Positions 6,172-39,225 of a stretch of 43,266 bases of DNA are shown in pieces. Both the position numbers and the translations under genes were made by a program. The notes under the pieces were generated by a model. The model was given only the letters and a program-made list of their open reading frames with translations. It did not search any database and was not told the origin of the DNA. Numbering within the stretch: position 1 is the stretch's first letter; every line of letters starts with the position of its first letter. This stretch comes from Prevotella sp. (GTDB taxonomy: Bacteria; Bacteroidota; Bacteroidia; Bacteroidales; Bacteroidaceae), in the NCBI GenBank assembly GCA_017556145.1, contig JAFZCU010000128.1, positions 1-43,266 on the forward strand. The letters are read 5' to 3'.

Positions 6172-7208
6172 CCTATGAGATTGAGGAGCGTGTGCTCCAT
6201 TTTAAGCAGCCGGCAGGCACTTCGCGCGGTGTCTATACCATCCGCAAGATCTGGCTCGTTCATCTCTACGAGGGTGATTGTCATGGCGTAGGGGAGTGTG
6301 CACCATTACCTGATCTTAGCTGTGATGCGATGGAGCATGAAAGGTATGAGGCGTTACTTCGTCAGTTCTGCAAGAAACTATGTGAGACCGGTGAGATGGA
6401 CTACGATGCATTGAGGGATTATCCTTCAATGTTGTTTGGCCTCGAAACAGCCCTGCTTTCCTTACATTCCTCTCTCCTCTCACCTCTTACCTCTCACTTC
6501 TTATTTGATACGGCCTTCAGTCGTGGTGAAGTCGGTATTCCTATTAACGGTCTTGTCTGGATGGGCAATTACGATGAGATGCTTCACCGTCTGGAAACCA
6601 AGCTTGAACAAGGTTTTAGATGTGTAAAGTTAAAGATCGGTGCCATCGACTTTGACCAAGAGCTGGACTTGATAAAGAGGATCAGAGAAAGGTTCTCCTT
6701 CCACGAAGTAGAACTCCGTCTCGATGCCAACGGCGCCTTTCCTTACAACGAGGCCCTTTATAAGCTCGAGCTCCTCTCTCAATACGCTATCCACTCCATC
6801 GAGCAGCCCATCCGTCAGGGACAGTGGGCCTATATGGCTGAGCTCTGTCGCGAGTCACCTCTCTCCATCGCCCTCGACGAGGAACTCATCGGAGTCAACG
6901 ACCCCGCGATGAAGCGCCACATGCTCAACATCATCAAGCCCCGTTACATCATCCTTAAGCCCTCTCTTCACGGTGGCATGGCTGGCTGTCGCGAGTGGAT
7001 TGATATTGCTCGCGATATGGGTATCGGCTCGTGGATTACCTCTGCCCTCGAGAGCAACATCGGCCTGAATGCCATCGCCCAGTTTGCCGCCTCTATCTAT
7101 GGCGACCACATCACCATGCCACAGGGCCTCGGCACCGGTCAGCTCTTCACCGACAATATCCCAATGCCTTTGGAAATCAGAGGCGATCAGTTATGGCGAT
7201 GTCGTTAG
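6168..7208 (+). CDS. menC: o-succinylbenzoate synthase MenC
   Basis: An enolase-superfamily dehydratase that makes o-succinylbenzoate from SHCHC. Catalytic elements are visible: KLKIG (first Lys pair, near residue 154), RLDANGAF (metal Asp, near 186), SIEQPI (metal Glu, near 210), ALDEEL (metal Asp, near 236) and LKPSLHGG (second Lys, near 262). The length is 346 residues. Oddity: at 6471-6505 the coding strand is a run of five imperfect TCTYNCC-type heptamers, read as [12 protein letters not shown] just before FDTAFSRG. This looks like a low-complexity tract that expanded inside the gene, in a loop before the barrel domain. The gene overlaps menB (ATGA) and menE (16 bp). Confidence 0.92.
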
Positions 7209-8176
7209 AGGCATTCCTTGAAGAGTGGAATAACCCTTCGGAAACACTATTGGTGTATACCAGCGGCAGCACGGGTACTCCTAAGCCCATGATGGTTGAG
7301 AAGCATCGTATGCTTGCCTCTGCCCGTCGTACTAACGATTTCCTCGGCCTCCAGCCTGGCGACACCGCTCTGCTCTGTATGTCGCTCGACTTCATCGCTG
7401 GCAAGATGATGGTCGTTCGCGCCCTCGAACGCCAGTTACGATTAGTCACTGTCGCTCCCAGTGGCCATCCCTTGGCCGCCCTCAATGACCAGACTTCCCT
7501 CGATTTCGCTGCGATGGTCCCCTTGCAAGTCTACAACTCCCTCCAAGTTTCCATTGAGCGTGAGCGTCTGATGCAGATCCGCCACCTTATCATCGGTGGG
7601 GGAGCTATCGACGATGCCCTAGCTTCAGAACTGAAAAACTTCCCCAATGCCGTCTGGAGTACTTATGGCATGACTGAGACCCTCTCTCACATCGCTCTCC
7701 GTCGCCTTTCTGGCCCTGAAGCCTCTATCTGGTACACTCCCTTCCCCTCCGTCCGTGTCAGTCTTTCCGAAGAAGACACTCTTATCATCGATGCCCCCGA
7801 GGTCTGCCCCAATCCCCTCGTCACCAATGATATTGCTGAACGATCTCCTGATTATTCGAAATTTCGGATTATCGGAAGAAAAGACAACATCATCTGCTCC
7901 GGAGGCCTGAAGATTCAGGCTGAGGAACTCGAGCGTCAGCTCCGTCCCCACATGCGCGTACCTTATATAATTACCAAGCGTCCCGATGAGAAATTCGGCG
8001 AGATTGTCGTCCTGCTCACCGAAGGCTCCACAGATGAAGCCCGTGAGGTCTGCGAGCGCATCCTACCCCGTTTCCACCAGCCTCGCGCCTATCTCCACGT
8101 CTCCAGCATCCCCCTTACCGCCACTGGCAAACCCGCCCGCCATGAGGCAGCGCTATTAGCCGACAATAACAATTAG
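7193..8176 (+). CDS. menE: o-succinylbenzoate-CoA ligase MenE (short Bacteroidetes form)
   Basis: An adenylate-forming ligase that activates o-succinylbenzoate to its CoA ester. P-loop VYTSGSTGTPKP lies near residues 20-31, the ATYGMTET-type A5 motif appears as STYGMTETLSHIAL, the hinge GRKDNIICSGG is near 229, and the C-terminal catalytic Lys is in TATGKPAR near 312. At 327 residues it is shorter than typical acyl-CoA ligases, with a reduced N-terminal domain. I chose ATG 7193, which overlaps the menC end; ATG 7199 is equally possible. The longer frame from 7031 lies inside menC and is not credible. It ends the operon 24 bp before the convergent RT gene. Confidence 0.9.
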   Translation: MAMSLEAFLEEWNNPSETLLVYTSGSTGTPKPMMVEKHRMLASARRTNDFLGLQPGDTALLCMSLDFIAGKMMVVRALERQLRLVTVAPSGHPLAALNDQTSLDFAAMVPLQVYNSLQVSIERERLMQIRHLIIGGGAIDDALASELKNFPNAVWSTYGMTETLSHIALRRLSGPEASIWYTPFPSVRVSLSEEDTLIIDAPEVCPNPLVTNDIAERSPDYSKFRIIGRKDNIICSGGLKIQAEELERQLRPHMRVPYIITKRPDEKFGEIVVLLTEGSTDEAREVCERILPRFHQPRAYLHVSSIPLTATGKPARHEAALLADNNN

Positions 8177-8200: not shown

Positions 8201-9451
8201 TCATAATTGGCAATCTGAGCCTATTTCGATATGTTTTCTTTGGGCAGTGGCAGTTTCTTTGTATTTGTAGAACTCGTTTACCAAGCTCTTGTAGCCTAAT
8301 TGTTTAAGCTGTGCATAGTCGGTTCTGTAATTGGCCTTGTTGTGTTTCCCCGTGCTCAGGAAGCGGATGTTCTGCTGAAGGTAGTGATCGATTTCCTTGA
8401 GTCCGTCGGTGGTGTTGATGACAGGGAAAAACCACCTGGACCATGTGAGGACTTCGGTATCGTCGTTCTCAAAAAAGACACGATTGAAACGGTTGATGAG
8501 CGCTTTCATGGCCTTTTCGGGCTCAATGTGCTTTTTGTTGCGCCAACGCATCAGCGACTTGGTGGCACGTTTGATTTTGCCTTTCATCTTTCTCTTGGTG
8601 GCTTCCGAGATGTCGATGATGTGTGCATGGCACTTGAATCCTAAAAATTCGTAGGCATCATCGGGCGTATATATTTTTTCCTTATCGGGGTTTATTTCAA
8701 GCCTATATTGCCTGAGGAATTCTGCCATTTTCCCTTTGTAGGTCTCGAGTGTATCCAAGTCGGGCGCAAATAGGATAATATCGTCGGAATAGCGTGCATA
8801 AATGACATTGGCTTCACTGAAATATCGGTCCACTTTTTTTAAATAGACGTCGGCCAGGAAGGGTGAAGTGGGGGTGCCGGCCATCACCCCGTGGTTTTCA
8901 ATGATGGTTTCGCCGTTGAAGACGACTCTGTTGTCGGTCAACATGTTTTCAAAGAAACGGTACAAAGGCGGATCACCGGTCATCATCTCCGCCAGCATCG
9001 GCAGCAGGATATCTATGGAAATGGAATTGAAATAGTCATGGATGTCGAGTTTGTAGGCCCACATCTTCCGACCTCTGATGGCCTGGTTGATGTGAAAGAT
9101 GGCATCACTCGCTTTCATGCCCCTACGGAACGCATAGCAATTCGGTGCAAAACACCGATCGTAATCATAGAGCTTGAAGGCCATGAGTTTGAGGAGCATC
9201 ATCTCGTCGGGCGCAAAACTATAGACCACACGTTTCTTTCCCGTGCCCATCTTATTGATAATCTTCTTCGTGGGAATGCCTAATCGCTCGCCTTGGGCTA
9301 TCTTCTGCGCCAGAGGGAGGTACGCTTCACGTTCCACATAACTGTCGGCTTCTTTAAACTCATGCCAAGTGAAACGACCTTTCAGCAGTCGATAGGCAAG
9401 AAACTCTTCCCATGTTTCTTGTCGGGAAAGTTGCGTCAGGATGCTCTCCAT
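8201..9451 (-). CDS. reverse transcriptase (retron/defence-RT-like, class unassigned)
   Basis: A 416-residue RNA-directed DNA polymerase. RT blocks are clear: first catalytic Asp in YKLDIHDYFNSI (Asp136), GTPTSPFLADVYLKKVD (192-208) and the catalytic centre YARYSDDIILF (YSDD at 221-224, Ser where retrons usually have Ala). LEINPDKEKIY and FLGF follow, then a basic helical thumb (about 283-310) and a C-terminal segment around LGYKSLVNEFYKY (385-397). The block 4 motif is GxPxSP, not the SQ form of diversity-generating RTs. I found no retron NAxxH or VTG motifs, no intron maturase domain and no endonuclease domain. ATG 9451 is preferred; the open frame upstream runs through the structured segment 9464-9598. 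It could be an unknown-group or defence RT. Confidence 0.85.
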   Translation of the reverse strand: MESILTQLSRQETWEEFLAYRLLKGRFTWHEFKEADSYVEREAYLPLAQKIAQGERLGIPTKKIINKMGTGKKRVVYSFAPDEMMLLKLMAFKLYDYDRCFAPNCYAFRRGMKASDAIFHINQAIRGRKMWAYKLDIHDYFNSISIDILLPMLAEMMTGDPPLYRFFENMLTDNRVVFNGETIIENHGVMAGTPTSPFLADVYLKKVDRYFSEANVIYARYSDDIILFAPDLDTLETYKGKMAEFLRQYRLEINPDKEKIYTPDDAYEFLGFKCHAHIIDISEATKRKMKGKIKRATKSLMRWRNKKHIEPEKAMKALINRFNRVFFENDDTEVLTWSRWFFPVINTTDGLKEIDHYLQQNIRFLSTGKHNKANYRTDYAQLKQLGYKSLVNEFYKYKETATAQRKHIEIGSDCQL

Positions 9452-9463
9452 GATGAAAAAAAG

Positions 9464-9598
9464 AAAAAGGGGATTGATTTTGAATCCGCAAAATTGCGGA
9501 TCACGAGAGGATACCTTGCCCCGTTTGCCTGCAAAACATAGATGTGTGCGGGTAAGGCTGCCTCCATTGCAGGCGCAGCACTGCTGCATCCCCTTTTT
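9464..9598 (-). ncRNA. candidate structured RNA bounded by inverted repeat, upstream of RT
   Basis: Read on the minus strand, this 135-nt segment begins with AAAAAGGGGAT (9598-9588) and ends with the exact complement ATCCCCTTTTT (9474-9464), 12 nt before the RT start codon. Between these arms are several hairpins: GCAGC-AGT-GCTGC, GCCT...AGGC, and ATCCGCA-ATTT-TGCGGAT (about 9484-9501). A competing long pairing joins GCCTGCAA (9527-9534) with TTGCAGGC (9567-9574). Terminal complementary arms around hairpins directly 5' of an RT recall the a1/a2 layout of retron msr-msd. Other defence RTs also carry an upstream ncRNA. Alternatives are an unusually long-looped terminator of the upstream gene or an RT leader. 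Confidence 0.5.
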
Positions 9599-9607
9599 CA
9601 GTAAATC

Positions 9608-10123
9608 TTAGTCCAGAAACTTGCGAATGCGTCCGATGACATAACTTCTTTCGTTGGGCATCTGCGTGTAGAAGTTGATGTAGGGAAGATTTAACTTCTC
9701 AGCGTACATCCTTGCAATCAGATACTTCACGTTCTCATCATGGCTATGGCCTTTGCCGAGCATCACCACACCCTTGGGGCTGCCGCCAGCTTCGAGCAAG
9801 AACGTGTAGGGCTGTCCCCATTCGGCTCTATAGACCTGACGCGGACGTGTCGTGTAGAGCTGTTCCTCATCGCTGACGAATCCAACGAGGTCGGTCACCT
9901 TGACGTTCTCACGAATCGTGTACGACGGGAATTCACTCAGCAGAATCTCCTTGAAATAGCTTTTCCATTCTGCATCAGTCTTTTCTCTTTCCACTTCCGC
10001 GCTCGGAGAAACCGGACGCTGTGTAGGACGGACCTGTTGTGTGGATGACACATTGTTCTTTGAATCGTCAAGATTGTCCTTGACTATATCCACAACCTTC
10101 AACAATAATTTACCCCAATCCAT
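9608..10123 (-). CDS. hypothetical protein upstream of RT
   Basis: A soluble 171-residue protein I cannot assign. It has a short N-terminal helix (MDWGKLLLKVVDIVKDNL), a polar linker to about residue 45, and a compact C-terminal domain. The motifs are YTIRENV, AEWGQPYTFLLEAGG, KGVVMLGKGH, IARMYAEKLNLPYINFY and ERSYVIGRIRKFL. The E...K strand-turn-strand (FLLEAGGSPKGVVML) loosely recalls restriction-endonuclease-like cores, but this is speculation. It has its own TACCTTTG promoter at 10158-10165. It lies 157 bp upstream of the RT on the same strand, with the inverted-repeat RNA candidate between, so the three may form one transcription unit. Confidence 0.75.
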   Translation of the reverse strand: MDWGKLLLKVVDIVKDNLDDSKNNVSSTQQVRPTQRPVSPSAEVEREKTDAEWKSYFKEILLSEFPSYTIRENVKVTDLVGFVSDEEQLYTTRPRQVYRAEWGQPYTFLLEAGGSPKGVVMLGKGHSHDENVKYLIARMYAEKLNLPYINFYTQMPNERSYVIGRIRKFLD

Positions 10124-10157: not shown

Positions 10158-10165
10158 CAAAGGTA
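10158..10165 (-). promoter_or_regulatory. Bacteroidetes -7 box TACCTTTG for the 171-aa gene
   Basis: CAAAGGTA on the plus strand reads TACCTTTG on the minus strand, 34 bp before the start codon at 10123, matching the Bacteroidetes TAnnTTTG consensus. Confidence 0.6.
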
Positions 10166-10339: not shown

Positions 10340-11395
10340 TTAGCCCTCGCGATAGAAGTCGAGGGCTTCGTAGATCTCTTCCTTCGTGGCGGTCTGGTTG
10401 ATGCGGATGTCGCCGATGCCACCGAGCAGGGTGAAATTGATGCTGCCCGCCGTATTCTTCTTGTCATGCGTCATGAGCTCGAGGAGGGTGGGGTAGTCAT
10501 CGCAAGTGACGGGCATGCGGCCGTAATGTTCACGGATGAAACTGACGGTCTGGCGCATCTTGTCGGTGGGGAAGCCAGTCTTAACGGTGCTCAGGTAGAG
10601 CTCGCAGACAAGGCCATAGGCGACGGCGTAGCCGTGAAGGATGGGAGTATGGCTGAGTGCAAACGACTCGAAGGCGTGGCCAACGGTATGGCCGAGGTTG
10701 AGAGCCTTGCGGAGACCATGCTCTAAGGGATCCTCGGTGACAATGCGCTGCTTGACGGCCACGCTGTCGGCCAGCATGCGCTGGAGAGTGGCAAGGTCTA
10801 AGGGCTCGGCATCGAGATTGAAATTGATCAGTTCTGCCCACATCGCCTCGTTGGAGATGAGGCCGTGCTTGAGCATCTCGGCATAGCCGGAGAGAATGTT
10901 CTCACGGTCGAGGGTGCGCAGGAACTGTGTGCTAAGGATGACCGTAGCGGCATTGTTGAACACTCCGATCTCGTTCTTCAGGCCTCGGAAGTTGATGCCT
11001 GTCTTACCGCCGACACTGGCGTCGACCATGGCGAGCAGGGTGGTGGGGATGTTGATGTAGTTGATGCCGCGCTTGAAGGTGGAAGCCGCGAAGCCGCCCA
11101 GATCGGTCACCATGCCGCCACCTATATTTATTAATAAGGTGTGGCGGGTGCCGCCCATACGTCCGAGTTCTTCCCAGACATGGGCCAGTGATTCAAGCGT
11201 CTTGTGGGTGTCTGTAGCCCCGATGCTGATGACCTCAGCACCCTGAAGGCAGGGAAAGCCGCTGACCACAGGCCAGCAGAGCGTTCGGGTGGTATTGTCG
11301 GTGAGTATGAAGAGCCTATCGTGCTCGCAGGCCGCGATGGCGCTGGCGAGCGACGTCTCCAAATTCTCCGCTATTTCTACCTGTTGGGGGTTCAT
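10340..11395 (-). CDS. aroB: 3-dehydroquinate synthase AroB
   Basis: The second enzyme of the shikimate pathway, converting DAHP to 3-dehydroquinate with NAD and a divalent metal. The 351 residues include the NAD-binding run NIGGGMVTDLGGF (near 90-102), IPTTLLAMVDASVGGKTGIN, and the metal ligands in GYAEMLKHG, NLGHTVGHAFE and ILHGYAVAYG. It acts in the cytosol and supplies chorismate, which MenF uses, but it is convergent with the men operon and not co-transcribed. Start ATG 11395 gives MNPQQVEIAENL; a TATCTTTG promoter lies 29 bp upstream. Confidence 0.95.
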   Translation of the reverse strand: MNPQQVEIAENLETSLASAIAACEHDRLFILTDNTTRTLCWPVVSGFPCLQGAEVISIGATDTHKTLESLAHVWEELGRMGGTRHTLLINIGGGMVTDLGGFAASTFKRGINYINIPTTLLAMVDASVGGKTGINFRGLKNEIGVFNNAATVILSTQFLRTLDRENILSGYAEMLKHGLISNEAMWAELINFNLDAEPLDLATLQRMLADSVAVKQRIVTEDPLEHGLRKALNLGHTVGHAFESFALSHTPILHGYAVAYGLVCELYLSTVKTGFPTDKMRQTVSFIREHYGRMPVTCDDYPTLLELMTHDKKNTAGSINFTLLGGIGDIRINQTATKEEIYEALDFYREG

Positions 11396-32544: not shown

Positions 32545-34497
32545 ATGATTGACAGGGCTACGATAGATAAGATCATGGATGCCACGAACATTGTCGACGT
32601 GGTGGGGGAGTTTGTCACGCTCCGCAAGGCGGGTGTGAACTATAAGGGCCTGTGCCCGTTCCACGACGATACCACGCCTTCGTTCATGGTGTCGCCCTCG
32701 AAACAGATCTGTAAGTGCTTTGCCTGTGGTGAGGGTGGTACGGCCATCAATTTCCTCATGAAGCACGAGCAGATCACCTATCCCGAGGCCCTGCGGTGGC
32801 TGGCGAAGAAATACAATATCGAGATACAGGAAAAGGAACTCACCGACGAGGAGAAACAACAGCAGAGCGATCGCGAGTCGATGTTCATTGTCAACGAATG
32901 GGCGCGGCTTTATTTCCAGGATATATTGAAAAACGACCCTGATGGCATCGCCATCGGTAAGCAGTATTTCCGTAGCCGGGGTATCCGCGATGACATCGTT
33001 GAGAAGTTCTGTCTGGGTTTCGCCCTCCCGCAGCGTGATGCCTTGGCCAAGGCTGCCCTGAAGGCCGGCTATCAGGCGGAGTTCCTCGAAAAGACAGGCC
33101 TTTGCATCAAAAACGAAAAAGGCATCTACGATCGTTATGCGGGCCGTGTCATCTTCCCTTGGCTGAATGTGAGCGGTAAGGTGGTAGCCTTTGGCGGACG
33201 ATTGTTGGATGCCCGTACCAAAGGCGTGCAGCAGAAATATGTCAACTCGCCCGATTCCGAAATCTATCATAAAGATCATGAGCTCTATGGCCTCTTCCAG
33301 GCGAAGAAGGCTATTGCCAAGGAAGACCGTGTCTATATGGTGGAGGGCTATACCGATGTGATTGCCATGCACCAGAGTGGCATTGAGAACGTGGTGGCCA
33401 ATAGTGGCACAGCCCTCTCCGTCTATCAGATTAAATTGCTCCGTCGCTTTACCCAGAACATTACCTTATTATACGATGGTGATGAGGCTGGCATCCATGC
33501 GGCCATGCGAGGCACCGACATGTTGTTGGCAGAGGGCATGAATATCAAGGTGCTGCTGTTGCCTGATGGCGACGATCCGGACTCCTTTGCCAAGAAGCAT
33601 TCGGCACAGGAGCTGAAAGACTATATCGAGAAGAATCAGACGGACTTCATCACGTTTAAGACACGTCTGACGGTGGAGAATGTGACCGACCCCGTGAAGC
33701 GCTCAGAGGCCATCAGCGGTATTGTGAAGAGCATTTCCGTGATTCCCGATCAGATCCTGCGCTCCACCTATCTCAGTGAACTCTCGCAGCGCATGGGCAT
33801 CAAGGAACAGACATTGCTGAACTCGATGAACGGCATGATTCGCAAGGACCTTGAGGAGAAGGAAAAAGAGCGCGAGCGGAATCAAGGGGACAGGTCGCTT
33901 GATTCCGACAGCAACGCTGTGAATCAAGGACCTGTCCCCTTGATTCCAAACACCTTGACGCCTGACTCCGAAGTGGAGGAGCTGATTATCAAGAGTATTA
34001 TCCGCGATGGTGAAAAGGTCATCTTCGAGCATGTGGAGATGGATGATGGCACATTTATCGACTTGACGGTGGCGCAATATGTGAATTACGACTTGGGGCA
34101 GGACAATATCCATTTCCACCATGAACTGTATAACCAGATTCTCGAGGAGGCTGTGGCGCATAGTGGCGAACCCGATTTCAAGGCCGAGACCTATTTCATG
34201 CACCATCCCGATGTGAATATCAGCAGCTTGGCAGCACGCTTGGCCATCGACACGCATCAGCTGGGCAAGAGCTTCCAGTTGAAGGAGCGTGAAGGAGGGC
34301 TCCGTCAGCACGTTCTCCACTTGGTGCTCGACCTGCGCATGGACATCGTCGAGAAACGACTTAAGGAACTCAAGGCAGAAATGCGACAGGTGGGCAGCGA
34401 TATGGAGCGCATCAAGGCCCTGATGGAGGAATTCAAGGAAACCCAGGAACTGCGTAACGCCCTGGCCCAACAGCTGGGCAACGACTTGGTAGGATGA
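32545..34497 (+). CDS. dnaG: DNA primase DnaG
   Basis: Makes RNA primers at the replication fork. The CHC2 zinc finger has Cys37, His40, Cys58 and Cys61 (GLCPFHDDTTPSF, CKCFACGEGG). The primase core follows (SRGIRDDIVEKFCLGF, GRVIFPWLN, GGRLLDARTKGVQQKYVNSP), with Toprim motifs VYMVEGYTDVIA (Glu near 267) and LLYDGDEAGIHAA (near 311). The C-terminal part (about 480-650) is the helicase-binding region. Between these domains, residues 445-468 are encoded by a 70-bp near-perfect palindrome (33878-33947), probably a mobile palindromic insertion tolerated in the flexible linker. The stop overlaps cls by ATGA. Confidence 0.95.
   Translation: MIDRATIDKIMDATNIVDVVGEFVTLRKAGVNYKGLCPFHDDTTPSFMVSPSKQICKCFACGEGGTAINFLMKHEQITYPEALRWLAKKYNIEIQEKELTDEEKQQQSDRESMFIVNEWARLYFQDILKNDPDGIAIGKQYFRSRGIRDDIVEKFCLGFALPQRDALAKAALKAGYQAEFLEKTGLCIKNEKGIYDRYAGRVIFPWLNVSGKVVAFGGRLLDARTKGVQQKYVNSPDSEIYHKDHELYGLFQAKKAIAKEDRVYMVEGYTDVIAMHQSGIENVVANSGTALSVYQIKLLRRFTQNITLLYDGDEAGIHAAMRGTDMLLAEGMNIKVLLLPDGDDPDSFAKKHSAQELKDYIEKNQTDFITFKTRLTVENVTDPVKRSEAISGIVKSISVIPDQILRSTYLSELSQRMGIKEQTLLNSMNGMIRKDLEEKEKERERNQGDRSLDSDSNAVNQGPVPLIPNTLTPDSEVEELIIKSIIRDGEKVIFEHVEMDDGTFIDLTVAQYVNYDLGQDNIHFHHELYNQILEEAVAHSGEPDFKAETYFMHHPDVNISSLAARLAIDTHQLGKSFQLKEREGGLRQHVLHLVLDLRMDIVEKRLKELKAEMRQVGSDMERIKALMEEFKETQELRNALAQQLGNDLVG
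33878..33947. repeat. 70-bp palindromic REP-like element inside dnaG
   Basis: Outer arms of 19 bp are perfectly complementary (33878-33896 with 33929-33947, containing AATCAAGGGGACAGGTC). They continue into an inner stem, CTTGATTC/GAATCAAG (33898-33905, 33921-33928), and ACAGC/GCTGT with loop AAC. Only 1- and 2-nt bulges interrupt about 32 bp of stem. The reading frame stays open through it. The core GGGGACAGG is shared with the element in cls. Confidence 0.9.
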
Positions 34498-35957
34498 TCA
34501 GTTGGAACGTCATATTATTCATTGTCTATCATGTGATTGTCATCCTGGCAATCATCCATGTGGTGATGGACAACCGGCAACCGGCCAAGACGATGGCATG
34601 GGCACTGGTGATATGGTTTGTACCAGTGGTAGGTCTGGTGTTCTATCTCTTCTTTGGCTTGAACACCCGCAAGGAGAAATTCATCAGCCAGCGCAGTCTC
34701 GACCAGCTCTCCAAACGTTCGATGCTGGAGTTCGTCGAGCAGAAGGACCTGCAGCTGCCTGCTGAGCATCGCCAACTCATCGACCTCTTCGTCAATGAGA
34801 ATTTCTCATTGCCTTTCAAGGATAATCAGGTCACGGTCTATGGCGACGGTTACGCTTTCTTCCCTGCGCTCCTGGCAGAGATTGCCAAGGCGGAGAGTCA
34901 TATCCATATCGATATGTATATCTTTGCCGAGGACCCGTTAGGCATGCTGCTCTCTGATGCCCTGATCGACAAGGCACGCCAGGGTGTGGAGGTAAGGCTG
35001 ATCTACGACGATGTAGGCTGCTGGAACGTCAGTCATGCCTTTTTCGACCGCATGCGCGATGAAGGTGTCGAGATTGTGCCTTTCCTGCCTGTGCGTTTCC
35101 CGTCGTTCACGAGCAAGGTCAACTATCGTAACCACCGCAAGCTGATTGTCATCGACGGACGAATCGGTTTCATCGGGGGTATGAACATCGCCTTGCGCTA
35201 TGTGAAGGGTACGGGCTCCCAGGCTTGGCGCGACACGATGCTGAAGGTGGAGGGCACGGGTGTCTATGGCATCCAGCGGGCGTTCCTCATCGACTGGTAT
35301 TTCTGCGACCGTACGCTCATCTCCAACCGCAAATACTATCCTCCCTCACACGGGGACAGGAACGATGTGATGTCAGAGATATCACACGCGTTCCTGTCCC
35401 CGTGTGAGGCGTTGACGCAGGTGGTCTGTAGCGGTCCGGTGGCACCCTATCCTGAAATCATGCAGGGCTATGTGCGCATCATCCTTTCCGCCAAGCGCTA
35501 TGTATATATAGAAACACCCTATTTCCTGCCTACCGAACCCGTGCTGTTTGCCCTGAAGACCGCCTCGATTGCAGGTGTCGACGTGCGCATCATCGTGCCT
35601 TACCGCAGCGATGCCAAATGGGTGGAGTGGGCGAGTCGCAGTTATTTGCGCGATGTGGTGGAGTCGGGTGTCACCGTCATGCTCTATCAGGCGGGATTCC
35701 TCCATTCCAAGCTGCTTGTCTGCGACGATAGCATCTGTTCGTGCGGATCAACCAATGTCGACATCCGCAGTTTCGAGAATAACTTCGAGTCGAACATCTT
35801 CCTCTATGGCGAAACTGCAGCACGTCAACTGCGTGAGGTGTTCCAGGCCGACGAACAGCAGTCGGTCAACTTGCAGGACATGCCCGAACGCATGCACCCG
35901 AAGTTTATGAAACGGCTTTGGGAGTCGATGGTCAGGATGATGTCACCCCTGATGTAA
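34494..35957 (+). CDS. cls: cardiolipin synthase (phospholipase D family)
   Basis: A 487-residue membrane enzyme that joins phosphatidylglycerol molecules. Two N-terminal transmembrane helices (VILFIVYHVIVILAIIHVVM and MAWALVIWFVPVVGLVFYLFFG, the PLDc_N type) precede two HKD catalytic motifs, NHRKLIVIDGRIGFIGGMN near 212 and HSKLLVCDDSICSCGSTNVD near 402. Residues 284-305, between the two catalytic halves, are encoded by a 64-bp palindrome (35345-35408). The start overlaps the dnaG stop (ATGA). The end overlaps rsmD tail to tail by 15 bp. Confidence 0.93.
   Translation: MISWNVILFIVYHVIVILAIIHVVMDNRQPAKTMAWALVIWFVPVVGLVFYLFFGLNTRKEKFISQRSLDQLSKRSMLEFVEQKDLQLPAEHRQLIDLFVNENFSLPFKDNQVTVYGDGYAFFPALLAEIAKAESHIHIDMYIFAEDPLGMLLSDALIDKARQGVEVRLIYDDVGCWNVSHAFFDRMRDEGVEIVPFLPVRFPSFTSKVNYRNHRKLIVIDGRIGFIGGMNIALRYVKGTGSQAWRDTMLKVEGTGVYGIQRAFLIDWYFCDRTLISNRKYYPPSHGDRNDVMSEISHAFLSPCEALTQVVCSGPVAPYPEIMQGYVRIILSAKRYVYIETPYFLPTEPVLFALKTASIAGVDVRIIVPYRSDAKWVEWASRSYLRDVVESGVTVMLYQAGFLHSKLLVCDDSICSCGSTNVDIRSFENNFESNIFLYGETAARQLREVFQADEQQSVNLQDMPERMHPKFMKRLWESMVRMMSPLM
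35345..35408. repeat. 64-bp palindromic REP-like element inside cls
   Basis: Arms 35345-35364 and 35389-35408 are perfect 20-bp complements (CTCACACGGGGACAGGAACG on the left). An inner stem TGTGAT/ATCACA (35366-35371, 35381-35386) closes on a 9-nt loop. The reading frame is open. The core GGGGACAGG and layout match the dnaG element, but the flanking arm bases differ in a compensated way. Confidence 0.9.
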
Positions 35958-37424: not shown

Positions 37425-37749
37425 CGAATTATTTAGCGAAAACTGAAAGGTTTTCTACAAAATAATCATAACTGATGCAAAGATACGCATACTCGGTGAG
37501 ACAATAAAGCAATTTTTTAATTTCAAAATGATATAATAGCCTACATGCCTACATAAAATCTCTCAAACATACGATAAATAAAGGCTTTTCTGTACTTTTA
37601 TGCCTACATAAAGCCTACATGATACCTACATTCTGCCTACATGAATTTGGCACAAATACGGTCGAAATTAGCATCTCTTAACGTCTGCATAGGGTACTCG
37701 CACGTTGAAAGATACGACTTCGCAAGTTTTCTGATTAATAGTAGCAAAG

Positions 37750-37767
37750 AAATTCTCTAGAGAATTT
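37750..37767. repeat. 18-bp perfect palindrome, copy 1
   Basis: AAATTCTCTAGAGAATTT is its own reverse complement. It is repeated identically 65 bp away at 37815-37832, a typical layout for a dimeric DNA-binding protein's operator pair. Confidence 0.75.
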
Positions 37768-37814
37768 TCTGCTTTGATACGTGCTAATAATTGCTGAATA
37801 GGGAGGTAAGCATC

Positions 37815-37832
37815 AAATTCTCTAGAGAATTT
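37815..37832. repeat. 18-bp perfect palindrome, copy 2
   Basis: Second identical copy of AAATTCTCTAGAGAATTT inside the inverted-repeat element. Confidence 0.75.
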
Positions 37833-38073
37833 TTTACTCCCCTTAAGGATAGAACATGCGGAGTGCTTGCCTGGATTTTGCGGGATAGGGAGCTCGACAT
37901 TTACTCTGTTGACTTTATGAAAAGGGTGTTTTTAGGCCAAAATACCACAAAAACATGTAGGCAGAATGTAGGTATCATGTAGGCTTTATGTAGGCAAAAA
38001 TTTCTCAATATCCCTTTAAATAAAGGCATTTCCATCGATTTTATGTAGGCATGTAGGCTATAAACGGAATTTT

Positions 38074-38233: not shown

Positions 38234-38569
38234 ATGAATAAGGTTGGAGTAAAACGGGAATTGATAAGCCATCTGAAGAAAGCAAATGCCTTCTGGTCTT
38301 ATCAAGTGGATTCCATCAAGGATGTGCCTGATGACATTCTTGTGGAATTGGTTATGCTTCATCTTGATTTGGAAGACATAGATAAACTATTCGATATTTA
38401 TCCTTTCAAGTTTATTAAAAAGGCATGGATTGAGAATGTTGTGGTGTTAGGAGATCGCCATTATGAACTCAATAAGTTCTTTGCTTGGTATTATTTCAAA
38501 ATGAAAAAGCCGGGAGCTTATGTGAAATCGATGGAAACTCGGGTGCTTAACAAACGTATGGTTGCATAA
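38234..38569 (+). CDS. probable antitoxin of an AbiE-type toxin-antitoxin system
   Basis: A 111-residue soluble protein directly upstream of a nucleotidyltransferase toxin. It has NAFWSYQVDSIKDVPDDILVE, a motif I associate with Bacteroidetes DUF6922-like antitoxins paired with AbiEii toxins, then helical MLHLDLEDIDKLFDIYPFKF and a basic end (RVLNKRMVA). In such type IV systems the antitoxin usually represses the operon and counters the toxin. ATG 38234 is preferred; GTG 38231 would add one residue. The stop overlaps the toxin start as TAATG. The assignment rests mainly on position and size. Confidence 0.7.
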   Translation: MNKVGVKRELISHLKKANAFWSYQVDSIKDVPDDILVELVMLHLDLEDIDKLFDIYPFKFIKKAWIENVVVLGDRHYELNKFFAWYYFKMKKPGAYVKSMETRVLNKRMVA

Positions 38570-39225
38570 TGAACGGATTAGCTCCACAGACGTCAGAACT
38601 ATTTGAGAAGATCTCTCAATTAGATTGCATCAAACCTTTCGTCTTGGTGGGTGGTACTGCTTTGTCTTTGCAATTGAATTTGAGACAGAGCGAAGATTTG
38701 GACTTTATGCGTTGGAAACAATCTCCAAAAGATAAGTTGGAAGTAGGTATTTCAACGATAAAGCACGAATTGGAAACCATTGGGCACATCGATAAGATGG
38801 ATATAGGCGGCTTTAATTTTGTGGAGTTTGTTGTTGACGGTGTTAAACTATCATTTTATGCGGCTCCAAGAAAACGGATACCTTCGATGCAGGTTATACC
38901 ATATCTTAATAATCTGCAATTGGCTGACATTAAGTCCATTGGTGCAATGAAGATGGAGGCAATGCTTCGTCGTAGTAAATTTCGAGACTATTATGATATT
39001 TACTCGATTCTGAAGCAGGACGTTGATCTCCAAGAGATGATAGATATAGCCTTGGAGCATTCTGGCCATTTATTGAAAAGAAAAAATCTCTTAGCTATAT
39101 TGTCGAATGGGGAGCGGTTTAGAAAAGACAAAGAGTTTCTGGCACTTAATCCTGTCTATGATGTCTCTGCCCTTGACATAGAGGAGTATATCAAGGAAAA
39201 ATTGTTCGAAATAAATGGTAAGTGA
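38569..39225 (+). CDS. AbiEii/AbiGii-family nucleotidyltransferase toxin
   Basis: A 218-residue DNA polymerase-beta-like nucleotidyltransferase. The active-site motif GG(T/S)...DxD is VGGTALSLQLNLRQSEDLDF (about 24-43), followed by a third acidic strand near FNFVEFVVDGVKLSFY. KRRSKFRDYYDIYSIL-type basic motif (MLRRSKFRDYYDIYSI, about 139-154) is conserved in AbiEii toxins, which transfer nucleotides to tRNA or proteins and stop growth. The family gives phage abortive infection or plasmid stabilisation. Coupled to the antitoxin by TAATG. Confidence 0.88.
   Translation: MNGLAPQTSELFEKISQLDCIKPFVLVGGTALSLQLNLRQSEDLDFMRWKQSPKDKLEVGISTIKHELETIGHIDKMDIGGFNFVEFVVDGVKLSFYAAPRKRIPSMQVIPYLNNLQLADIKSIGAMKMEAMLRRSKFRDYYDIYSILKQDVDLQEMIDIALEHSGHLLKRKNLLAILSNGERFRKDKEFLALNPVYDVSALDIEEYIKEKLFEINGK

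Follow-up and report, generated by a model that had tools for sequence, protein, structure and literature searches.

A chromosomal unit of UG26 reverse transcriptase, RT-5 RNA and an accessory protein in Prevotella and related Bacteroidales

We analysed a stretch of 43,266 nt from Prevotella sp. (contig JAFZCU010000128.1 of assembly GCA_017556145.1, positions 1-43,266 of the forward strand; hereafter the window), in which an inspection of the letters alone (hereafter the sequence-only reading) had pointed out a reverse transcriptase (RT) gene preceded by a structured RNA and had suggested an undescribed family of RTs with noncoding RNAs. This suggestion did not hold, as the RT belongs to the catalogued class UG26 and the RNA to the known family Rfam RT-5. 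The description of the unit as an RT plus an RNA was correct as far as it went and missed a third part, an accessory gene at 9608-10123 whose family is found in 78 of 80 related loci, the other two being cut. On the minus strand the order from 5′ to 3′ is a promoter-like motif, the accessory gene, the structured RNA and the RT gene. Comparison among relatives supports the RNA, the partnership of RT, RNA and accessory protein, the operon and the catalytic RT residues. We consider the whole as a three-part UG26 chromosomal unit that likely works like DRT10, with an RNA-bound RT, an RNA-templated complementary DNA (cDNA) and an accessory effector, and, from sequence comparison and analogy, we give this reading a probability of about 0.62. 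The UG26 class and the RT-5 family were known already; what is better defined here is the three-part unit and a fuller RNA, probably with a pseudoknot.

The related loci were obtained by scanning the GTDB genome collection with eight UG26 proteins. The scan gave at least 558 relatives of any kind, of which the best 80 were kept (L011-L090, with 59-85% identity), weaker relatives lying outside the sample. By their record titles, the kept loci belong to Prevotella, Bacteroidaceae or other Bacteroidales, and most of them stem from ruminant guts. The RNA was present in all 80, whole in 79 of them and represented in L033 by its last third, at a contig end. When the open reading frames (ORFs) of the 80 loci were clustered, the RT family was found in 80 and the accessory family in 78 (L033 and L064 are cut by contig ends), while the next gene family, RT shadow frames set aside, reached 9 loci. 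We also examined 301 genomes of the same family: the RT occurred in nine, the RNA in the same nine and the accessory profile in eight of those. The two surveys are not independent, because at least four of the nine loci recur among the 80 (L006, L008, L009 and L010 match L021, L015, L020 and L031 over the 160 bases compared). The genome without a match to the accessory profile (G630, locus L110) has two accessory genes that have diverged, with an RNA after each of them; in a profile comparison its accessory domain matched the accessory family (A3) with a probability of 89.7 and an E-value of 1.9e-6. This expanded unit (2735-6353 of L110) reads accessory gene 1, RNA 1, accessory gene 2, RNA 2 and RT, and the product of accessory gene 2 has two copies of the domain, with zinc-ribbon-like and transmembrane-like parts (by eye and from weak Pfam matches).

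The distances of RT, RNA and accessory protein correlate with one another, with r of 0.77-0.79 over 76 loci. The median ratio of nonsynonymous to synonymous substitution rates (dN/dS) was 0.088 for the RT (232 pairs) and 0.124 for the accessory protein (48 pairs), both values being rough because dS is high.

The RNA of the window scored 71.1 bits against Rfam RT-5 (RF03026), the gathering cut-off being 45.7, and covered the full model (1-104). Of 14 loci on which this model was run, 13 reached the cut-off and the miss was L033, cut by its contig end; a run with stricter filters over 395 genomes from the phylum matched the window's own genome and no other (1/395). The RT-5 RNA is said to go back to Weinberg et al. 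in 2017. A covariance model built by us from an alignment including the window RNA (R1) gave 142.3 bits at 9461-9602. The RNA stretches past the Rfam match (9471-9578) to a closing stem, so as to occupy 9463-9599 on the minus strand, where 12 perfect pairs join GAAAAAGGGGAT (9588-9599) with ATCCCCTTTTTC (9463-9474), 137 nt from end to end. An RNA with perfect arms upstream of the RT is what the sequence-only reading had described, with arms of 11 nt, a length of 135 nt and a gap of 12 nt to the RT; these figures become 12, 137 and 11 (the gap being 9452-9462). The printed structure of the Rfam model is without the closing stem (P1), the hairpin next to it (P2) and the pseudoknot; we consider our RNA as the same family extended outward.

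The comparison shows that this RNA is conserved, folded into helices P1-P5 and accompanied by the RT and the accessory protein. Seven named helices (P1, P2, the pseudoknot, P3a, P3b, P5 and P4) were counted on an alignment of 82 rows (A2), namely the window, L003-L005 and 78 of the 80 kept loci, with L042 and L033 left out. Standard pairs filled 95.1% of 3574 cells, against 84.8% in shuffled alignments and 45-51% when the 3′ partners were slid, and changes on both sides of a pair were found in 32 of the 44 pairs, against 17.9 in shuffles (none of 500 as high). The structure was drawn from the window and the A2 sequences themselves, which favours it with respect to the slid versions, and the shuffles ignore relatedness. 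This conservation in 82 RNAs is the main evidence for the RNA and is stronger than the figures that can be obtained from the window only. When the 300-bp region was shuffled by mononucleotides, 18 of 2000 versions contained an 11-bp inverted repeat with arms 20-200 nt apart; 31 such 11-mer pairs, stemming from a few longer repeats, are present in the whole window, compared with 1.7 after shuffling. The predicted folding energy was −56.1 kcal/mol against −37.9 for dinucleotide shuffles (z −4.86; none of 200 as low).

All the helices lie on the minus strand. P1 had 7 of 11 counted pairs changed on both sides; conservation and covariation of the arms in homologous loci, which the sequence-only reading had named as the thing to look for, were therefore both found. 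The three or more interior hairpins that this reading had seen are also confirmed, since P2, P3 and P4 are present. P2 (GCAGC/GCUGC, 9575-9587) had 4 of 5 pairs changed on both sides. P3 consists of P3a (9561-9565 with 9506-9510; 4 of 5 pairs) and P3b (9550-9557 with 9514-9521; 7 of 8). P5 pairs 9534-9537 with 9523-9526 (2 of 3 counted pairs), and the P4 hairpin AUCCGC-AAUUUU-GCGGAU (9484-9501) changed on both sides in all six pairs. Two single-stranded elements are relevant to what follows. Segment J (GCACACAUCUAU, 9538-9549) sits 3′ of helix P3b and differs between loci, with a length of 7-14 nt and once of about 35. The element UCAAA (9479-9483) is invariant in A2 and stands outside all counted helices. 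The long J is that of L042 (5798-5964), where the remaining RNA is intact and scores 117 bits.

A further pairing joins GCCTGCAA with TTGCAGGC, with 8 bp in the window, six of which are aligned across relatives (GCCUGC at 9569-9574 with GCAGGC at 9527-9532, the latter within the P5 loop). The sequence-only reading had seen these 8 bp and considered them as competing with the hairpins, and a minimum-energy fold, which is incapable of pseudoknots, does take this pairing instead of most of P3. The pairing stands, while the competition does not: because relatives retain P3 as well as the long-range pairing, the two fit a conserved pseudoknot. Precisely, 99.8% of its cells are paired and 2 of 6 pairs changed on both sides (G-C to A-U in four rows and U-A to C-G in three), for 7 doubly changed cells against 0.4 in shuffles (none of 500 as high). 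From this comparison we consider that the RNA very probably contains a pseudoknot between 9569-9574 and 9527-9532.

The RT gene (8201-9451, minus strand) encodes 416 amino acids plus a stop. A mechanical listing of ORFs gave 8201-9589 (462 amino acids); we placed the likely start at the ATG at 9451-9449 because close relatives start with the same MESI/MDSI motif. The best PADLOC profile was RT_UG26, with 537.4 bits over nearly the whole model, and no difference was seen between the window RT and this class; the next model reached 113.9 bits, and the next specific UG profiles were UG27, UG17 (that of DRT10; 105.4 bits), UG4, Drt3a (95.9) and Drt9 (92.4). The UG26 class reportedly goes back to Mestre et al. 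in 2022. The window RT remained under the NCBIfam cut-offs of all eight models listed, including group II, Drt2, Drt3a and the St85 retron; a group II intron maturase was considered and rejected at 119.1 bits against a cut-off of 300. When 29 RTs were placed in a tree, the 11 rows of UG26 formed one clade with support 100/100. The Drt3a and Drt3b references of this tree were obtained when UG17, Drt9 and Drt3a were each searched for in 148 genomes; in plasmids, a looser search gave, among the matches listed, mostly group II intron RTs and no DRT reference. The stand-alone RT with a YSDD centre of the sequence-only reading was borne out, as S222, D223 and D224 are conserved in 46 of 46 aligned RTs. 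Near the C-terminus Tyr387 is present in 46 of 46 and Ser389 in 45 of 46, and Tyr357 and Tyr379 are likewise invariant; by analogy with DRT10, Tyr387 and Ser389 are candidate priming residues. We found no report of UG26 as a class lacking an associated RNA, and the next-best Class 2 UG RTs include ones with template RNAs, according to the accessible parts of the source (PMC12632851).

The accessory protein (9608-10123, minus strand; 171 amino acids) has an N-terminal amphipathic segment, a Pro/Gln/Ser-rich linker and a conserved domain weakly similar to COG2852, which we take to be a Vsr-like nuclease family. The hydrophobic moment of the N-terminus was significant in 58 of 78 members (each test uncorrected); by eye, the N-terminus resembles a transmembrane segment in L090 and in one protein of L110. 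Pfam and NCBIfam gave no match for the window protein, other members tried against Pfam gave no match over the cut-off and only weak ones below it, and the best E-value against PDB sequences was no lower than 0.47. The PADLOC profile RTasCOG2852 matched 31 of 34 members weakly (E-values up to 0.01, the best being 3.1e-8), and therefore an RT-associated protein of this kind was already catalogued. A literature search for COG2852 or DUF559 together with reverse transcriptase found only unrelated work.

The upstream ORF ends 0-47 nt (median 5) before the extracted RNA segment in 77 of the 78 loci checked, L064 having no room on its contig for an accessory gene. The motif TAnnTTTG, which we take to be a Bacteroidales-type promoter motif, occurs in the window as TACCTTTG (10158-10165, minus strand) and, in 53 of 78 loci, within the 150 nt upstream of the accessory gene, against a mononucleotide-shuffle mean of 5.2; a TTG lies 18-22 nt further upstream in 34 loci against 0.4 in shuffles. 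In the approximately 100 nt before the RNA the motif was found in none of 77 loci (1.2 expected). Because the promoter motif precedes the accessory gene and not the RNA, the simplest reading is that accessory gene, RNA and RT are probably one operon transcribed from a promoter before the accessory gene. In one locus (L085, 2228-7191) the accessory gene is still followed by the RNA, and the RT is 3057 nt away from the latter, with trkA and trkH (Pfam) in between. This separation, and the extra RNA following the extra accessory gene in L110, suit an RNA acting in trans.

In the window the unit is inserted between a menE-like gene (7031-8176, plus strand; menE is the best NCBIfam match, under its cut-off) and aroB (10340-11395, minus strand; above the NCBIfam cut-off), which form the two borders of the site. 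A survey of same-genus genomes matched menE in 48 of 60, the window's own included, and we examined the loci of 19 besides the window: menE and aroB are adjacent, 10-275 nt apart and without the unit, in 8 of the 19, aroB was not seen in the stretch examined of the remaining 11, and none of the 19 has the accessory gene. As for the neighbours in other loci, the Pfam families among the matches listed (25 of 82) were mostly metabolic, the commonest being RadC and glycosyltransferases (4/100 each). The idea of a defence island was unsupported, as the neighbours differ from locus to locus and defence genes are a minority among them.

Among the systems described by experiment, DRT10 comes closest. 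In the accessible parts of the paper describing it (PMC12632851), a 137-nt RNA, a SLATT protein and the RT are all required for defence, a C-terminal Ser or Tyr primes the synthesis, and tandem repeats are made by copying a template that lies beside a stem and is poorly conserved. As far as those parts go, the UG26 unit shares with DRT10 the three components, the 137-nt size of the RNA, the conserved C-terminal Tyr/Ser and a variable segment beside a stem. The two differ in the RT, that of DRT10 being UG17 (for which the window RT scores 105.4 bits, against 537.4 for UG26), in the accessory protein (SLATT in DRT10; in UG26 weakly COG2852-like, without a Pfam match and so not a recognised SLATT), in the position of the RNA, which precedes the accessory gene in DRT10 and lies between the accessory and RT genes in UG26, and in the A-B-A′ repeats of the template loop, which are not enriched in J. 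Class 2 RTs use RNA templates, with ACACAC as the template of DRT3a (PMC13174585, accessible parts) and a conserved poly-U as that of DRT9 (UG28) (PMC12483538, accessible parts). DRT9 and DRT3a, as Class 2 UG RTs with template RNAs, are those whose profiles score 92.4 and 95.9 bits on the window RT; CACACA stands at J in the window, yet it is found in only 3 of 83 RNAs.

By this analogy, the RNA of about 137 nt would be released from the operon transcript, or fold out of it, and would bind the RT. The RT would prime DNA synthesis on its own Tyr387 or Ser389, as DRT10 does, and would copy a short exposed segment of the RNA, most likely J beside P3b, into DNA that is single-stranded or made of repeats. 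Through its N-terminal segment the accessory protein would be kept at the membrane, and it would sense or use this DNA, or the loss of it when phages infect, and act as the effector in phage defence. We consider J as the first candidate template, in which case the expected product would be 5′-ATAGATGTGTGC-3′ or repeats of a part of it; UCAAA after P4 may be a second single-stranded template, giving a DNA complementary to UUCAAAAUC, or a protein site.

Two further ideas on J were rejected. A-B-A′ template repeats seemed present by eye in many J loops (L011, L019 and L029, for instance), and the shuffle and hybrid tests were negative. A locus-specific hairpin in J was also considered: the longest inverted repeat (2.35) exceeded mononucleotide (2.15; 24/2000 as high) and, slightly, dinucleotide shuffles (2.24; 15/300) and was not above locus-swapped hybrids (2.39; 1454/2000), so that we read it as shared loop ends and not as locus-specific pairing.

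Several results weigh against the DRT10-like reading. The longest direct repeat in J had a mean of 2.58 nt over 55 non-redundant loci, against 2.50 in mononucleotide shuffles (426/2000 as high), 2.63 in dinucleotide shuffles (235/300) and 2.54 in locus-swapped hybrids (596/2000), and for this reason we do not claim template repeats; a positional scan of J for identity or pairing gave, as the best of many identity diagonals, an uncorrected combined z of 2.74 that we did not count as a signal. J may be no more than a linker allowing P5 to bend back and form the pseudoknot, and the template may be elsewhere. The pseudoknot itself relies on few changes, as 27 of 500 shuffles also yielded two doubly changed pairs, its count of pair types was matched in 178 of 500 shuffles and three of its six pairs never vary. 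As regards the accessory protein, the N-terminal moment was insignificant in 20 of 78 members, and PD-(D/E)XK residues were not obvious by eye in most of them. The RT phylogeny that the sequence-only reading had recommended gave a firm UG26 clade, while the deep placement of UG26 relative to other classes was not settled by this small tree, with some long branches and few Class 2 references (the clear DRT ones being Drt3a and Drt3b only). Finally, at most 5 of 100 scanned neighbours (of 144 found) matched PADLOC at 1e-15, and no relative was found by tblastn at 1e-20 among 50,697 records of phages and 72,556 of plasmids. Among viral contigs, two protein-based scans gave no relative in one case and one remote RT (26% identity) in the other, and the RNA model matched none of 53 viral stretches taken from a motif scan, at E-values up to 1; UG26 RTs have been reported in cold-seep viruses (PMC10504277, accessible parts).

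The same observations can be explained in other ways. The RNA could be a cis-acting leader that controls translation of the RT or the end of its transcript, and is neither a partner nor a template. The extracted RNA segment ends a median of 11 nt before the RT start, the RNA seems to be inside one operon transcript and in L110 each of the two RNAs precedes a gene, all of which would be expected of a leader. We consider it quite unlikely, since the RNA of L085 is found next to the accessory gene and far from the RT, other loci have up to 172 nt before the first aligned RT residue, and a folded RNA of this size is kept in 80 of 80 UG26 loci (one cut), RNA partners being known for related RTs. 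A divergent retron, with P1 as the a1/a2 pair and an msr-msd copied from a 2′-5′ branched primer, we regard as highly improbable. NAxxH and VTG are motifs of retron RTs, and the former was found in 3 of 81 RTs and the latter in none of 81, in agreement with the remark of the sequence-only reading that the protein lacks retron motifs; moreover, the window RT scored 64 bits for the St85 NCBIfam model against a cut-off of 235, it matches the UG26 profile at 537.4 bits, and a long msd-like hairpin was not seen by eye. What the unit shares with retrons is an RNA closed by an inverted repeat, with the RT just downstream. Thus, of the likeness to retrons or to other defence RTs with noncoding RNAs proposed at first, the RT-linked structured RNA remains, and the motifs and profiles examined speak against the retron.

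The unit might instead be selfish or domesticated and serve another purpose than phage defence, be it repair, stress or its own spread; this seems to us rather unlikely. Such a unit could well be sporadic (9 of 301 genomes), sit between menE and aroB at a site empty in 8 of 19 related loci, and have neighbours elsewhere that are mostly not defence genes. Against it, a third gene family travels along in at most 9 of 80 loci, so there is no common transposase or integrase, both proteins are under purifying selection, and DRT9 and DRT10, studied relatives in Class 2, protect against phage, according to the accessible parts of their descriptions (PMC12483538, PMC12632851).

Beyond the DRT10-like reading, a more specific version can be put forward tentatively, which we judge unlikely as a whole. 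UG26 would be a tripartite DNA-writing immune system with a telomerase-like layout (a stem as template boundary, a short variable template and then a pseudoknot), in which a membrane-held protein with a nuclease fold and no intact active site reads a lineage-specific DNA as an alarm, and one RNA can serve more than one accessory protein, as suggested by the doubled RNA-accessory arrangement in L110. If this were true, each lineage would write its own short DNA.

Other features of the window were observed in passing. Some 28 kb away from the UG26 unit, an AbiEii-type nucleotidyltransferase (type IV toxin-antitoxin; Pfam 1.4e-17) lies at 38569-39222 on the plus strand. Two inverted repeats with GGGACAGG cores, perfect over 19 and 21 bp, are located at 33878-33947 and 35344-35409 inside the reading frames of a primase and of a PLD protein, and look like repetitive extragenic palindromic (REP)-type hairpins in coding sequence. 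An imperfect (79%) inverted repeat of 114 nt spans 37536-38061, and between its arms there is one of 28 nt (89%; 37747-37835), in a stretch without a listed ORF of at least 80 amino acids.

In the full-text literature, with subscription papers mostly outside reach, we found no tested function for UG26 or RT-5, and no paper naming RF03026 or "RT-5 RNA" in the part of it that was accessible. UG26 and RT-5 have been catalogued separately and are here joined, with one accessory protein, in one operon, so that two catalogue entries become one unit that can be cloned and tested whole. If RNA-templated DNA writing is true of it, the unit would join the short list of studied Class 2 systems (DRT2, DRT3, DRT9 and DRT10), with a different partner protein and in Bacteroidales of the ruminant gut.

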